A DNA stretch of 64,000 nt. It comes from Rivularia sp. MS3. Its GTDB lineage: Bacteria > Cyanobacteriota > Cyanobacteriia > Cyanobacteriales > Nostocaceae. A model generated the notes under the pieces. That model was not told the DNA's origin, did no database searches, and saw only the letters and a list, made by a program, of their open reading frames with translations. Below are positions 20,178 through 27,190 of the stretch, in pieces. Positions within the stretch are counted from its first letter, which is position 1, and each line of letters starts with the position of its first letter. A program made the translations under genes and the position numbers. The stretch lies in NCBI GenBank assembly GCA_019192545.1, contig JAHCMI010000002.1:62001-126000 (forward strand), read 5' to 3'.

Positions 20178-20811
<634 letters not shown>

Positions 20812-21681
20812 TTACATTTCCTTATCCACTAAAATTTTTGTTTGTCTGGCAGTTGGAGATATTGCTTTACCGAATAACGCTTCGCTATATTTTGCTGTTG
20901 CCATTGCATTGTTTTCTTTAGTGTAAGAAAAAATAGCAGTATAACGTTTTTGATTTCCTGCTACTTTTGTAACGCGGTGCAAAGATAATTTACCCTGAAA
21001 AATCTGCAAATCTCCGGGCTGTAGTTGATTTTGTTCTACATCTTGGTAATAGCCATGTAAAACTTGATTCACTAATTCATAGTTTTCACTTGATAGTGTT
21101 CTGATATGAGGAGCATATTCAAAAATTCCTCCGGCGCTCGCAGCCTGAATCATCAAAACGACACTGAAGTCATTCTCATCGTAGTGCCAAGGATGTTGTG
21201 CGTCTTGTCGTAAAATATTTAATACTAATCCGGCTAAAGGGTCGCTATATTCATATATGGGTTCAGATGCCAAACAAGCTGCAATTAAATTCTGAAATGT
21301 TTTGGCTCGGTAAAGAGTTAAAAAAAGCGATTGTGGATGAAATTTATTTAGTGGCACAAAACCGTTTGTTCTTTCCATGAAGAATCTTGCGGGATGTTCG
21401 GGTGGTAATGTTGGGTCATCATCTGTTTTAAATATATTTGTGTTTCTGGTTGCATAATATGCTTCATTTTCCAAAGCAAAAGATTCTTGTTGAGCCAGAA
21501 AAAGCGCTTGTGGGGTTAAAAAGTTTTTGAATACGCAGCATCCTCGCGACTCTAGCTGTTGGCGACAATTCGCAATTATATCTAAAGATTTTTGTTGAGA
21601 TAGGTCTGCGATTGGATATTGTTGAAAATTTATAATTTGTTCGATTTTTAGCGGCACTTTTGTAAGTTGTTTGCTAACCAT
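20812..21681 (-). CDS. 2-oxoglutarate/Fe(II)-dependent oxygenase
   Basis: The 289-residue protein carries the 2-His-1-Asp iron triad in a double-stranded beta-helix order: H166 and D168 (HPWHYDEND), H235 (KLSLHRVTK), then R246 (NQKRYTAIFSY), which would hold 2-oxoglutarate. The ~45 residues after the start lack secretion signals, so it is cytoplasmic. LQPGDLQIFQG before the distal His is typical of small-molecule hydroxylases. The substrate is unknown. It is divergent from a carnitine/choline acyltransferase gene over 274 bases, so a hydroxylated quaternary amine or similar is a reasonable guess, but nothing in the sequence proves it. Confidence 0.88.
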   Translation of the reverse strand: MVSKQLTKVPLKIEQIINFQQYPIADLSQQKSLDIIANCRQQLESRGCCVFKNFLTPQALFLAQQESFALENEAYYATRNTNIFKTDDDPTLPPEHPARFFMERTNGFVPLNKFHPQSLFLTLYRAKTFQNLIAACLASEPIYEYSDPLAGLVLNILRQDAQHPWHYDENDFSVVLMIQAASAGGIFEYAPHIRTLSSENYELVNQVLHGYYQDVEQNQLQPGDLQIFQGKLSLHRVTKVAGNQKRYTAIFSYTKENNAMATAKYSEALFGKAISPTARQTKILVDKEM

Positions 21682-21955
21682 TACATACCTACTATTTTAA
21701 TTGAATCTATTATGTACAATACGTTCTAATCACAGCTAAAACAGGGATGAAGGTAGCAGAATGTCACAAGCTTAAACAAGTGTTATCTAGATAACTTTCT
21801 GTTGATTATTAAAGCTAACCTGGCAATCAAGTTATGCTTAAGTCATTTTTACAGTTGTCCGCATAGTTACCTGAATATTTACTCGTTTGGTGGTATCAAA
21901 TTATATGTTAAAACCACCAAATTATTAATTTATAAAAGTATTAATTAAATCATCA
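21682..21955. promoter_or_regulatory. Shared divergent promoter region, oxygenase and acyltransferase
   Basis: The two genes start back to back, 274 bases apart. The region is AT-rich and ends with repeated TTAATT-type sequence before the acyltransferase start. No specific binding site was recognised; co-regulation is inferred from the layout only. Confidence 0.5.
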
Positions 21956-23704
21956 ATGATGTACGAATTTCAAAATTCCCTACCCGAGCTACCTTTGCCA
22001 ACATTAAAACAGACTTGCAAACTATATCTTCAGATAGTTGCGCCGTTGTTAAGTCCAGAAGAACTAGAGCAAACACAAGTAGTTGTTGAAGAATTTCAGC
22101 ACAAAAGCGGTAAAAAATTGCAGCAGCAATTAGAAATAATCGATCGTGCAACTAAAACCAGTTACGTTCACGATTACCGGGAAGAAAGTTTTTCGGAATA
22201 TCGGGGAGCTTTGGTTATCAATAAAAACTTTGGAGGGGTACTCGCACCAATTACCCAACCAGAATTACCTCAAGCTAAACTTGCTGCAACTTGGATTGTC
22301 GATACTTTAAAATTTTATCTGAAAATAAAACGACGGGAATTAGAACCAGATAGAGATTCACCGCGCAACGGCAATCAGCCAATGTGTATGGTTCAGTACG
22401 ACAATTTATTTGGCTGGAATCGGATTCCTGGTGTGAAACGGGATCGAATGCGTCATATTCCCCAACAAGAAAATATTGTAGTAATTTACCGCAGTGCATT
22501 TTACTCGCTACAACCGCTTAAAGATGAAAAAATTGCATCAGTTGCCCAAATAGAACAGCAAATAAACTGGATTTTAGAAAACACTTCTGCAAACGAACCG
22601 GCTTTAGGAGCATTAACGGCGATGAAAAGGGCTGCTTGGGCTGTAGTGCGTCAAGGTACAACGGCATTGAATTCGGAAAATGCTCGTTGTTTTGATTTGT
22701 TAGATAGTGCTTTGTTTGTAGTTTGTTTGGATGAAACAGCACCAGCAAATCTAGAAGCTGCTGCCGGAAGCGTACTGCATGGAGATGGTAAAAATCGTTG
22801 GTTTGATAAGCCCCTACAATTAATTTTTACGTCAAATGGTTACTCTGGTGTAAATGTTGAGCATGTAGGAGTTGATGGTTTTGTGATTATGCGCTACCTG
22901 TATGAAGTTAATAAAGAGCGACAGCAACAAAACCGAGAATCGGCGCAAAATGTTCTAAATAAAACTTTTGAATTGGAGCCACCGAAAAAATTACAGTGGA
23001 AATTCACTCAAGAAATTTTAGCCCAGATAAAACAAGCAGAATTAGAGGTTGAGAATTTTATCTGCGAACATGAAACAAAGGTTTTAGACTACCAAGAATT
23101 TGGACGAAATTTAATCAAAAATTACCGTCTAAGTCCCGATGCTGTGATTCAATTGGCAATTCAACTTGCTTATGTGAAGTTGCGCCATCAAATTGATTGC
23201 GTGTATGAATCAGTACATACTAGAAGATTTGCCTACGGACGTACAGAAGCAATGCGTTCGGTGACTCCTGAGTCAGTGGAATTTATTCGTACTTTCACCG
23301 AAAAATTTGGGGATGAGAAAAAATATGCTGCTTTAAAGAAAGCTGTTGCCGCTCATGTTTCTCGTCAAAAAGATTGTCAGCAAGGATATGGTGTTGACCG
23401 TCATTTACAATCATTATTGAGATTAGCTCGCGCTCAAGGAATGATGCCAAAAATTTATCAAGACAAAGCTTACAAAGTTCTTGGTAATTCAATCATCTGT
23501 ACCAGTAGCTTAGCTGCGGGAATGGGTATGGAATTATTTTGTTTTGGTCAAGTGGTAGATGACGGCTACGGCATTGGCTACATTATTAAGCCGGATAGTA
23601 TTACACTCAGCGTGACTAGTAAGTATCAGCAGACACAAAAATATATCGAGTTATTGGAACAAACTTTTTCTGAGTTAGCTGAGTTGATGGTTAAATTTGG
23701 TTAA
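21956..23704 (+). CDS. Carnitine/choline O-acyltransferase family protein
   Basis: The 582-residue protein is full length for the family. It opens with LPELPLPTLKQTCKLYL, the usual family N-terminus, and has the catalytic His H303 in NVEHVGVDG. YESVHTRRFAYGRTEAMRS (417-435) matches the family signature around the carboxylate-binding Arg, and GYGVDRHLQSLL (478-488), TSSLAAG (516-522) and GQVVDDGYGIGY (531-542) complete the active-site blocks. These enzymes transfer acyl groups between CoA and carnitine or choline. They are mostly eukaryotic and rare in cyanobacteria, so the acceptor is uncertain. No targeting peptide is visible. Start could be M1 or M2. Confidence 0.93.
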   Translation: MMYEFQNSLPELPLPTLKQTCKLYLQIVAPLLSPEELEQTQVVVEEFQHKSGKKLQQQLEIIDRATKTSYVHDYREESFSEYRGALVINKNFGGVLAPITQPELPQAKLAATWIVDTLKFYLKIKRRELEPDRDSPRNGNQPMCMVQYDNLFGWNRIPGVKRDRMRHIPQQENIVVIYRSAFYSLQPLKDEKIASVAQIEQQINWILENTSANEPALGALTAMKRAAWAVVRQGTTALNSENARCFDLLDSALFVVCLDETAPANLEAAAGSVLHGDGKNRWFDKPLQLIFTSNGYSGVNVEHVGVDGFVIMRYLYEVNKERQQQNRESAQNVLNKTFELEPPKKLQWKFTQEILAQIKQAELEVENFICEHETKVLDYQEFGRNLIKNYRLSPDAVIQLAIQLAYVKLRHQIDCVYESVHTRRFAYGRTEAMRSVTPESVEFIRTFTEKFGDEKKYAALKKAVAAHVSRQKDCQQGYGVDRHLQSLLRLARAQGMMPKIYQDKAYKVLGNSIICTSSLAAGMGMELFCFGQVVDDGYGIGYIIKPDSITLSVTSKYQQTQKYIELLEQTFSELAELMVKFG

Positions 23705-23721
23705 TGGGAGATCCTCCCTAA

Positions 23722-23740
23722 CCCTCCTTGTCAAGGAGGG
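23722..23740 (+). repeat. Short palindrome after the acyltransferase gene
   Basis: CCCTCCTT/AAGGAGGG forms an 8-bp GC-rich stem with a 3-nt loop 18 bases after the stop. There is no T-tract, so it is either a weak terminator or a dispersed palindromic repeat. Confidence 0.6.
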
Positions 23741-23851
23741 GATTAAGCCGTTGTAGCAAGGGGTTTTGATTATGTAGCTGATACGTCTAGCATTTACGAG
23801 TAAAATATATGACAGTATTTCTTGTTGCTACTAGCCCACTAATTTAGATAA

Positions 23852-25540
23852 ATGCTGCTCAACAACCGCTATCGAATAATTCAAACTTTAGGAAGCGGTG
23901 GATTTGGAGAAACTTTTTTAGCTGAAGATACCCAGATACCTTCGACTCGTCGGTGTGTCATCAAACAATTAAGAATAATTCAAGATAATCCTCAAACTTA
24001 TGAAATCGTGCAGCAGAGATTTGCGCGAGAAGCGGCGATTTTAGAAGAATTAGGTGATGGTAGTTCTCAGATTCCCAGATTATATGCCTATTTTAATGAG
24101 GGACAGCAATTTTATTTAGCTCAGGAATATATTCAAGGGCAGACTTTGAGCCAGATAATCGCCAATCGTGGGCGTTTGAACGAATCGGGGGTACGGGAAA
24201 TATTAGTCGGTTTATTAAATGTACTTGAATACGTTCATAGTAAAGGTATTGTTCATCGCGATATCAAACCAGAAAATATTATAATTCGCTCCTGGGATAA
24301 TCAGCCGGTTTTAATCGATTTTGGTGCGGTGCGAGAAACAATGGCTGCACAAGTTAATGAGAGAGGAAATGTTACTAGTTCGATTGTAATTGGTACGCCG
24401 GGATTTATGGCAGTTGAACAAGCTGCGGGTAGGGCTGTTTTTGCCAGCGACTTGTATAGTTTGGGGTTAGTAGCTATTTATTTATTAACGGCGAAGTTGC
24501 CCCAAGAATTGCAAACAGATAGCTATAGTGGTGAAATTATTTGGCAGAAAAACGGTGTAAGTTCTAATTTTGCAGTTGTCTTAGATAAAGCAATTCGCTC
24601 CCATATAAGAGAACGTTTTTCTTCTGCTAGAGAAATGCTTGAGGCGCTACAACCCCAGCCAACACAGACTACAGTACAAATGATGCCAGCAACAGCACCC
24701 AAGATGGCAAAACCCAGTACCGGCGGAAATTGGTTTAAGTCGGCATTAATAGGTAGTTTGATGGGTGGATGCGTGTTATTAGCTTTTGCTTATTTCCGAG
24801 AGCAACCACGACAGCAGCCAGAAAAAATCGCTGAAACACGGCAGCCAACGGTAACACCAAGTGAAACAGCTACGGTTCCTCCTGTAAAACAAGTAGATTC
24901 TTTTTATTTTTTGGCAGATTCAGCATTTAGACAAATCAATAACGCTAACAATCAAATTAGAAGATTAACAAATGCTGGCTACAACCAAACGGGAAAATTT
25001 TGGTTGCCGGATTATCCGAATTTATCTAATAATCCATACCATCAAGTTTATATAGCAAAGTTTACCAGTCGAGCAAACTGTATTGAGTCACTAAGAAATT
25101 ACATTCGTCGCAATCAAAATGCTTATTGTGCCTTAGCAAGTGAAAATGCCAATGTATCTCCAAATTATTTTTACGGCTCTCAAATAAAAATTGCTAAGAC
25201 AGATTCTCAACTATCACCTTCTCAAGCAGTAAGAGATTACTATCAAACTATTAATAATCGCAACTATACAGTTAGTTGGAATCAACTGACTCCAAAATTT
25301 CAAAGAGAAAAATCTAATAATAGTTACTCTGAATATAGAAACTGGTGGAACAAAGTTCAAAGAGTAGAAGTTGAGCAAGCAAAGACTTTATCAAATACTT
25401 CTAATAGGGCGATTGTAGAAACGCAAATGAAATATTATCTTAAATCTGGCAGAGTTGTAGCCGATGCTCAACGCTTCAAATTAGTATGGAATTCAACGCA
25501 GAAAAATTGGAAATTCGATGACTCCACTAAGCTAAATTAA
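23852..25540 (+). CDS. Membrane Ser/Thr protein kinase with extracytoplasmic domains
   Basis: The 562-residue protein begins at the kinase domain: glycine loop GSGGFGETF (14-22), Lys38 in VIKQL, HRDIKPEN (135-142), DFG at 156-158 and GTPGFMAVEQ (181-190). A Gln/Thr-rich linker and one membrane helix (~295-313) follow. Outside the membrane, about 345-440 resembles a SPOR-type fold with two Cys, and ~450-560 (AVRDYYQTINNRNYTVSWNQL) looks NTF2-like. The layout is typical of cyanobacterial Hanks-type kinases that may sense a periplasmic signal. A paralogue follows 99 bases downstream. Ligand and targets are unknown. Confidence 0.93.
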   Translation: MLLNNRYRIIQTLGSGGFGETFLAEDTQIPSTRRCVIKQLRIIQDNPQTYEIVQQRFAREAAILEELGDGSSQIPRLYAYFNEGQQFYLAQEYIQGQTLSQIIANRGRLNESGVREILVGLLNVLEYVHSKGIVHRDIKPENIIIRSWDNQPVLIDFGAVRETMAAQVNERGNVTSSIVIGTPGFMAVEQAAGRAVFASDLYSLGLVAIYLLTAKLPQELQTDSYSGEIIWQKNGVSSNFAVVLDKAIRSHIRERFSSAREMLEALQPQPTQTTVQMMPATAPKMAKPSTGGNWFKSALIGSLMGGCVLLAFAYFREQPRQQPEKIAETRQPTVTPSETATVPPVKQVDSFYFLADSAFRQINNANNQIRRLTNAGYNQTGKFWLPDYPNLSNNPYHQVYIAKFTSRANCIESLRNYIRRNQNAYCALASENANVSPNYFYGSQIKIAKTDSQLSPSQAVRDYYQTINNRNYTVSWNQLTPKFQREKSNNSYSEYRNWWNKVQRVEVEQAKTLSNTSNRAIVETQMKYYLKSGRVVADAQRFKLVWNSTQKNWKFDDSTKLN

Positions 25541-25639: not shown

Positions 25640-27190
25640 ATGAAAAATATCGGGTGCGAACCCATGATGAAATCAACATTATTAAACAATCGCTATAGAG
25701 TAATTCAAGTTTTGGCTAGTGGTGGATTTGGCGAAACATTTTTAGCTGAAGATACTCAGATGCCATCAAAACGAAAATGCGTAATTAAACAGCTTAAACC
25801 ACTAGAAAATAACGACCAAATATATAAACTAGTACAAGAACGATTTCAGCGAGAAGCCGCACTTTTAGAAAAGTTAGGCGACAGTAAAAATCAAATTCCT
25901 CAACTGTATGCTTATTTTACCTACGACGACCAATTTTATTTAATTCAAGAATATATCAAAGGAGAAACTCTTGCAAAAAAGAAAAAAAAAGAGGGAATAC
26001 TAAGTGAAAACTCGGTTAAAGAAATTTTAATTAATATTTTACCCGTTTTAGAATACATTCACAGTAAACGTATCGTTCACCGAGATATTAAACCTGATAA
26101 TATTATCATCCGCTCATCCGATAGACAGCCGGTTTTAATTGATTTTGGTGCAGTCAAGGAAACAATGCAAACCGTAATAGCAGTTTCCGAAAATTCTACT
26201 AAGTCGATTGTAATTGGGACACCAGGGTTTATGCCCAGCGAACAATCAGCAGGAAGACCAGTATATTCTAGTGACTTGTATAGTTTGGGACTAACTGCGA
26301 TATACTTACTTACGGGTAAAATTCCTCAATAACTTCCAACTAATCCATCTACAGGTGAAATTATCTGGCAAGAATATGCTCCAAATATTACTTCAAACTT
26401 GGCCGCAGTTTTAGATAAAGCAATTCAGTCTCATCCACGCGATCGCTTTGCAACTGCGACAGAAATGTTACAAGCTTTGAAAACCGATGTAGGCACAATT
26501 CCTCCCACAGTTCCCTATATTCATACAGAAACGCCAAGGGTGCAACCCCCAAATATAGCTTCAACACCACAAGTACAAACTCAGCTACAGGCACCAACAA
26601 TTGTAGATAATCCAGGAATGAAAGACTGGCAAAAAGCTACCATCATAGGCAGCGTAATTGGTGTATGTATTATGGCGAGTATTTCAATTATTAACAAACA
26701 ACCACCTGAAGCTGTTCAAGCTACAACCGTTTTAACTGGTGGAAGTCAAAATAATTCTGTGTTGCAGCCTACAGCATCATCAATAACAAGAGAAGCCGCT
26801 ATTTCTGTTTTAAATAGATGGCAAGAAGCAAAACGAGAATTGTTTGCGCCTCCTTTTAATCGCAGTCTGGGAGCAGATTTAACTACTGGTGAAGCATACA
26901 GAAAAAACATTGGTGCTGATAGTTCGTTAGAGTGGTTGGCAAACAATAATTCCTATTATCGATATGGGGTACAAAAAATAGATTCCATAGAAAATTTTGC
27001 TGCGAGTAATGATAGAGCAACAATTGAGATATTGATGACTGAAGATAGAAAATTTTATCAAAATGGAAAAATAGTTAGTGGTGATAATACCTCATTTGAT
27101 ACTAGATTAGTAAGGTATTCATTGCAATTAGAAAATGGAAAACTAAAAATATCTGATTACGAAACTATCAAAGTCATCAGCAGCCGTTAG
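25640..27190 (+). pseudogene. Ser/Thr kinase with ARC6-like C-terminal domain, interrupted by an in-frame stop
   Basis: This is a paralogue of the preceding kinase. The real start is probably M9 or M10 (25664 or 25667), since MLLNNRYR-type sequence begins there. Glycine loop GGFGETF, VIKQL, HRDIKPDN, DFGAVKE and GTPGFMPSEQ are intact, but codon 231 (26330-26332) is TAA where the paralogue has Glu in KLPQEL. The frame reopens at once (PSTGEIIWQ) and continues without further damage to 27190. The downstream part holds a membrane helix and, from about codon 383, an ARC6-like IMS domain (EAAISVLNRWQEAKREL, FYQNGKIV). The truncated kinase loses its last C-lobe helices. A single clean stop suggests a recent mutation, a read-through stop or a sequencing error. 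Confidence 0.85.

Follow-up and report, generated by a model that had tools for sequence, protein, structure and literature searches.

Why should a filamentous cyanobacterium carry a Fe(II)/2-oxoglutarate (2OG) oxygenase gene back to back with a gene for a choline/carnitine acyltransferase (CAT, PF00755), when carnitine acyltransferases are best known from eukaryotes, in particular animals and fungi? Both genes lie in the 64,000-nucleotide stretch of Rivularia sp. MS3 analysed here (the window), and the answer we favour, at slightly less than even chances, is that they form a module that first hydroxylates and then acylates a carnitine-like betaine, using a short acyl-coenzyme A (acyl-CoA). 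The initial annotation had described an HxD-H-R oxygenase (H166, D168, H235 and R246) divergent from an intact acyltransferase with a catalytic H303, a description that is borne out, as both open reading frames (ORFs) are complete. The oxygenase gene (20812..21681, minus strand) encodes 289 residues of a HalD/BesD-like protein (PF23169) that is a predicted hydroxylase with HxD-H-R intact; computed from the ORF, the codons of the first Fe ligand H166 and of D168 lie at 21184..21186 and 21178-21180, whereas those of the third Fe ligand H235 and of R246, a predicted 2OG contact, lie at 20977..20979 and 20944-20946, all on the minus strand. The CAT gene (21956..23704, plus strand) encodes 582 residues, with the catalytic H303 codon at 22862..22864 and carnitine-type acceptor residues. 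The 274 bp between the start codons (21682..21955) are the presumed site of both promoters, and the corresponding distances in other pairs are 273, 254, 176, 230 and 576 bp (a 174-576 bp class, with start codons as chosen there).

The pair is no chance neighbourhood. Its occurrence was followed in 217 genomes of the window's family, an even sample of 386 genomes from the phylum, and 14 controls. PF00755 is matched in 3/386 genomes of the phylum sample, all three in the window's family, in 0/14 controls, and in 9/217 genomes of the family set, in which the oxygenase is matched in 10/217; the 9.19 Mb window genome holds a single PF00755 match. Six of the ten oxygenase matches are strong (59-100% identity, E <= 1.2e-101) and four are weak (26-30%, E 2.8e-7 to 7.7e-4), and the genomes with the strong ones (G000, which is the window genome, G539, G540, G461, G462 and G413) are exactly those with a CAT of the window's type, the remaining three CAT matches being those of G306 and G523 and a fragment in G376. 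The two genes are adjacent and divergent in 6/6 genomes that hold both, and neither occurs without its partner at the orthologue level among the 217 family genomes. As G462 is flagged as 38% contaminated, and its pair is near-identical to that of G461 (92 and 95%), the number of independent cases is five to six. A profile built from the six oxygenases gave two matches in the phylum sample, namely the window's own and a weak one in G103; a scan of contigs, covering close relatives only, gave one locus, in G540, and the CAT gave no plasmid match at E 1e-5. The flanks are alike on both sides in the window and G539, and on the kinase side only in G540; in G413, G461 and G462, none of the ORFs in the compared flanking stretches has a counterpart among the genes that surround the window pair. 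The search for the pair in other genomes that the initial annotation had proposed thus finds a divergent unit kept in all of its carriers although the flanks differ, with the linkage persisting at 58-66% protein identity.

The extent of this unit is given by the pair-less genomes. In G537, the RpoB of which is 99% identical to that of the window genome, rpsT and the kinase gene are separated by 601 bp without the pair, and the flanks align to window positions 20291-20609 (91%) and 23850-24060 (86%), such that the block absent at the matching site (20610..23849) comprises the two genes and short flanks. No remnant of either gene was detected in G537 by tblastn at the site or by genome-wide searches. 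In G305 (RpoB 96%), rpsT likewise adjoins a kinase gene and the pair is absent. The empty site of G537 and the pair-less site of G305 indicate that the pair itself is the unit of presence and absence: the block at 20610-23849, barely more than both genes, is either there in full or missing in full, a pattern that fits gain and loss alike. The genus is represented by eight genomes: the pair occurs in three and is missing from five, of which one is only 84% complete. Both genes are under purifying selection, with orthologue dN/dS values of 0.10-0.25 (one comparison with saturated dS omitted), which are rough ratios as many dS values exceed 1.

The CAT matches PF00755 over profile positions 1-573 of 574 (E 1.4e-171; 572.4 bits, cut-off 22.3), and NCBIfam yields a chance-level match only (E 0.076). 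Residues were compared in HMMER alignments to ChAT, CPT2 and CrOT, which set the acceptor-site register, and in an eight-row alignment of the six pair CATs with the CATs of G306 and G523; H303, D307 and G308 are invariant in these 8/8 full-length cyanobacterial CATs. The stretch that carries the acceptor-site residues Y417, T430, R482, F530 and V533 spans 23204..23554 (plus strand). T430 and R482 are likewise Thr and Arg in CPT2 and CrOT but Val and Asn in ChAT, and this carnitine-type combination is kept in 6/6 pair CATs. More broadly, the ACYLTRANSFERASE site (Y417, E418, S419, T430, R482, F530, V533, R384 and K388) is identical in 6/6 pair CATs, whereas none of these nine acceptor/CoA-site residues is kept in the two CATs of G306 and G523, a loss that provides an internal contrast for the pair CATs. 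We take Phe530 and Val533 to be trimethylammonium contacts, and Arg384 and Lys388 align with a Lys-Lys of ChAT that presumably binds CoA; the roles of the named CrAT residues in carboxylate, trimethylammonium and CoA binding, as well as their numbering, are assumed throughout. F528 aligns where CPT2 has Gly, a position that we equate with Met564 of CrAT, and this, in the light of work on that CrAT residue, suggests short acyl groups. As judged by alignment, the pair CATs would carry a carnitine-type acceptor site, as against a choline-type one. As to the amine-binding pocket called for by the initial annotation, the putative trimethylammonium contacts F530 and V533 are conserved in 6/6 pair CATs; AlphaFold structures from two-row alignments had a mean pLDDT of 37.1 (oxygenase) and 31.0 (CAT) and were not used.

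The CATs of G306 and G523 constitute a second type, with 41-46% identity to the pair type and 67% to each other, and are associated with gene clusters. In G306 (L022 122-11784), the CAT lies amid polyketide synthase (PKS) and nonribosomal peptide synthetase (NRPS) genes and adjoins a TauD-type oxygenase, and in G523 (L021 2432-13157) it lies amid anthranilate-synthase-like, histone-deacetylase-like and AMP-ligase genes with a small acyl carrier protein (ACP)-like ORF that has no Pfam match; a scan of eight ORFs near the G523 CAT revealed no 2OG/Fe(II) oxygenase. The 79-residue CAT fragment of G376 (L023 8072-9689) contains a stop codon and neighbours a PhyH-type oxygenase and an NRPS-like ORF. 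Thus, a CAT or CAT fragment adjoins a 2OG/Fe(II) oxygenase in 8/9 genomes, with three oxygenase families represented, from which hydroxylation followed by acylation emerges as a recurring theme.

The oxygenase exceeds the cut-off of Pfam HalD (PF23169; 52.2 bits, cut-off 26, residues 118-261) and falls just below that of WelO5 (26.5 bits, cut-off 27), without any match in NCBIfam. The initial annotation had doubted its membership of the gamma-butyrobetaine hydroxylase family, and rightly so: neither TIGR02409 nor GBBH-like_N nor TauD is matched by the window oxygenase in Pfam and NCBIfam. By its profile matches, the enzyme is not a gamma-butyrobetaine hydroxylase and is HalD/BesD-like. The six aligned orthologues and 11/11 aligned relatives, distant ones included, all have H166, D168, H235 and R246; in particular, D168 is Asp in all eleven, in place of the Gly or Ala that replaces the Asp of HxD in halogenases. 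Halogenases have lost the protein-carboxylate ligand of hydroxylases, according to PMC10187165, such that the HxD kept throughout leads one to expect hydroxylation. In a tree of 17 rows, the ten proteobacterial rows group together (99/100), and Caballeronia, Pseudomonas MPC6 and Rhodobacteraceae M382 fall outside the other seven (99/98). The closeness of M382 is uncertain owing to its long branch and its low identity to the window protein. The row of G103 also has a long branch; in that genome (L011 81-2505), the gene immediately ahead of the distant oxygenase relative encodes an EgtD-type histidine methyltransferase (TIGR03438, 404 bits, over cut-off).

What this branch of oxygenases may act on is suggested by the genes around its outside relatives. 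A plasmid search with the oxygenase returned 92 records, all below 60% identity, of which 70 are from Pantoea and 7 from Klebsiella; the closest outside relatives are those of Caballeronia SBC1 and SBC2 (39.9%) and Pseudomonas MPC6 (34.7%). Eleven neighbourhoods from the plasmid searches with the oxygenase and with the Caballeronia protein were inspected, picked for diversity and not randomly; relatives of the Enterobacterales type make up most of the 92 records and contributed three of these loci. A quaternary-amine or DddP-like gene is nearby in 5/11 neighbourhoods, including those of the two closest relatives. The labels DddP-, MttB-, SoxA-, BADH-, GbcA- and ProX-like denote NCBIfam matches that are all below curated cut-offs, OpuAC alone being over its Pfam cut-off. 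In Caballeronia SBC2, a DddP-like M24 gene comes after the oxygenase and an OpuAC/ProX-like gene comes next; in Pseudomonas MPC6, the oxygenase is likewise followed by a DddP-like M24 gene. MttB-like, SoxA-like and BADH-like genes are near the oxygenase relative in Rhodobacteraceae M382 and Alisedimentitalea scapharcae, the near-identical loci of which count as one case, and an MttB-like gene with a GbcA-like Rieske protein is near that of Mesorhizobium WSM1497. On plasmids of Sinorhizobium (L045 5269-13469) and Shinella (L046 5260-13348), MttB-family, DddP-like M24, isochorismatase-family and glycine-betaine ATP-binding cassette (ABC) genes occur together; as relatives of the Caballeronia DddP-like protein sit with MttB-family and glycine-betaine ABC genes, the DddP-like neighbours are themselves tied to quaternary amines. 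A separate arrangement recurs on plasmids of Pantoea (L043 6016-7876) and Klebsiella (L053 5989-7838), where the HalD-like oxygenase adjoins a DUF2817 (M14-like) peptidase gene and a LysR regulator.

The favoured hydroxylate-then-acylate reading draws its CAT half from alignment, its oxygenase half from the neighbourhoods of relatives, and the coupling of the two from linkage. In a first step, the HalD-like Fe(II)/2OG enzyme would act at an unactivated carbon and hydroxylate a small zwitterion that bears both a carboxylate and a quaternary ammonium group, e.g. gamma-butyrobetaine or a close analogue. In a second step, and by homology, the CAT would use H303 as general base to move an acyl group of about acetyl size from CoA to the new hydroxyl. 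The product would be an O-acylated carnitine-like ester, which may act as an acyl buffer, a compatible solute or an exported product; the step order, substrate, acyl length and role of the module are all inferred. If gamma-butyrobetaine is the substrate, uptake is one option for its supply; in Listeria, acetylcarnitine, carnitine and gamma-butyrobetaine are reported to build up as solutes (PMC1224877). The more specific version, in which the product is an O-acetylcarnitine-like ester made by a gamma-butyrobetaine (or analogue) hydroxylase of HalD/BesD fold, independent of eukaryotic BBOX and directly coupled to a carnitine-type acetyltransferase, is doubtful on present evidence.

Several observations count against the betaine module. 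Quaternary-amine and DddP-like genes are absent in 6/11 neighbourhoods (Pantoea soli, Klebsiella, UR115, Rahnella, Ensifer and Shinella WSD5-1), and the M382 oxygenase shares only 26% identity with the window protein. In the CAT, the position that we take to be T467 of CrAT is Ala in 6/6 pair CATs, and S518 is replaced by Asn in the G413 CAT. A BBOX-type gene over the NCBIfam cut-off was found in 0/11 genomes, with matches below it in 7/11, and a BCCT transporter in 0/11 genomes, such that the search for a carnitine pathway, which covered its BBOX step, came up empty; no betaine gene, demethylase or lyase was found beside the cyanobacterial pair in the stretches examined. As to direction, acyl transfer is reversible in known CAT family members. 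The proposal of the initial annotation that the pair makes and acylates a hydroxylated quaternary amine is strengthened by the linkage, the CAT residues and the five neighbourhoods, but not proven.

Among solved or characterised chains, those nearest to the oxygenase are enzymes that halogenate or hydroxylate free lysine (E 2.6e-5 to 0.002), which weighs against a betaine substrate and speaks for a BesD-like enzyme that hydroxylates a free cationic amino acid (lysine or ornithine), the CAT then O-acylating the hydroxy amino acid. In line with this, the relative in UR115 adjoins a lysine/arginine/ornithine-type binding protein (209 bits, cut-off 256; an unannotated record in which one neighbour was scanned). 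The initial annotation had held that an oxygenase placed in an amino-acid clade would speak against its proposal, and such a placement is partly realised; the relation to the lysine enzymes is nevertheless distant even at its best E value, and the CAT retains in 6/6 cases the Phe530 and Val533 that we assume to contact a trimethylammonium group; an amino-acid substrate is fairly unlikely. The catabolic-looking gene sets around outside oxygenase relatives may instead hint at scavenging, in which acylcarnitine-like compounds or betaines would be imported, the CAT would run in the direction that forms acyl-CoA from the ester, and the oxygenase would open up the freed betaine or a precursor. OpuAC-type proteins, present in 14/14 genomes searched, are in keeping with this, but they do not differ between pair-plus and pair-minus genomes, and for the same reason OpuAC was discarded as a partner. 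With BCCT lacking in the 11 genomes and no demethylase or lyase adjoining the pair, scavenging is unlikely.

The cluster-associated CATs raise the prospect that the pair tailors a specialised metabolite, the scaffold genes of which lie elsewhere in the genome, the oxygenase hydroxylating and the CAT esterifying. The PKS/NRPS or ACP/AMP-ligase surroundings in G306 and G523, the TauD-type oxygenase beside the G306 CAT, and the PhyH-type oxygenase beside the G376 fragment all fit such tailoring. However, 0/6 pairs lie beside such biosynthetic genes in the stretches examined, and the pair CATs, unlike the cluster CATs, retain their carnitine-type and CoA-type residues, so that tailoring appears distinctly unlikely. 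Finally, the two enzymes might serve unrelated reactions and be together only through one ancestral linkage or co-transfer, as the pair is rare (6/217) and could stem from one linked ancestor; given that no orthologue of either gene stands alone in the 217 genomes and that the linkage survives considerable protein divergence amid unrelated flanks, we regard this as very unlikely.

Both enzymes come from known families; what would be new is their coupling, and a carnitine-type site in a bacterium with a non-BBOX hydroxylase. Neither of these, nor a cyanobacterial carnitine acyltransferase gene, was found in the open-licence literature searched. The CAT resembles CrAT, CrOT, CPT2 and ChAT in its full-length PF00755 match and catalytic His-x-x-x-Asp-Gly, with Thr/Arg as in CPT2 and CrOT, but it is bacterial and about equidistant by score from the four solved types; it differs from CrAT and CPT2 by the Ala and Phe at the positions described above and by the coupling of its gene to an oxygenase gene. 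Fungal polyketide synthases carry carnitine-acyltransferase domains in a biosynthetic setting like that of the G306 and G523 CATs, whereas the window CAT stands alone and keeps its carnitine-type residues. The oxygenase shares PF23169 with BesD/HalD halogenases and lysine hydroxylases, and HxD-H-R with the hydroxylases, yet it is weakly similar to characterised chains, has a carboxylate Fe ligand (unlike a halogenase) and has an acyltransferase partner. It would perform the same kind of reaction as BBOX and trimethyllysine dioxygenase if its substrate is a betaine, but it lacks their GBBH-like_N, TauD and NCBIfam matches. MttB-family quaternary-amine catabolic operons house oxygenase relatives (M382, A. 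scapharcae and Mesorhizobium WSM1497), although these operons have no annotated acyltransferase and the cyanobacterial pair has no demethylase next to it. A bacterial CAT that has kept a carnitine-type site and is inseparable from a non-BBOX hydroxylase suggests that bacteria make a carnitine-like ester, and the pair offers a candidate substrate class for an unassigned branch of HalD-like oxygenases. If the more specific O-acetylcarnitine-like version is correct, the pair would be the bacterial equivalent, in two genes, of the final part of the carnitine pathway, and the HalD-like branch beside MttB-like and DddP-like genes would be an unrecognised betaine hydroxylase family.

Further candidate partners were considered among the carriers. 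EgtD-like genes are present in 11/11 genomes and hence do not split pair-plus from pair-minus. In G461 and G462, a class III aminotransferase close to the pair exceeds the ArgD acetylornithine cut-off, is therefore probably housekeeping and was dropped; a methyltransferase beside the G413 pair has weak matches (25-30%) in 5/10 other genomes and was not counted. With TIGR02409 (cut-off 414.75), the window genome reaches 41.7 bits only and G540 294.9 bits. G540 contains a gamma-butyrobetaine-dioxygenase-like gene with GBBH-like_N and TauD (L117 7702-8913; G540:C362), the nearest solved chain of which is TmpA and which lies near an Asp/Asn-hydroxylase-like gene and a methyltransferase. A TauD-TPR protein of ~750 residues with a weak RimK-like ATP-grasp match (L112 7058-9328; relatives in L113, L114, L115, L116 and L119) is present in 6/6 pair genomes and in 0/4 pair-less genus genomes more than 90% complete (G542 has other TIGR02409 hits). 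It was weighed as a second module and lies near export genes in the stretches examined: in G000 its gene adjoins an HlyD-type gene and a putative C39-peptidase exporter, and the G413 copy runs off its contig. As to the kinase flank, no ORF for the serine/threonine-kinase-like gene was seen in the G539 stretch; it is a single ORF of 513-518 residues in G537 (L098 8583-10124) and G540 (L002 14080-15636), and in the window (25640-27190) it is broken into two ORFs of 230 and 263 residues.

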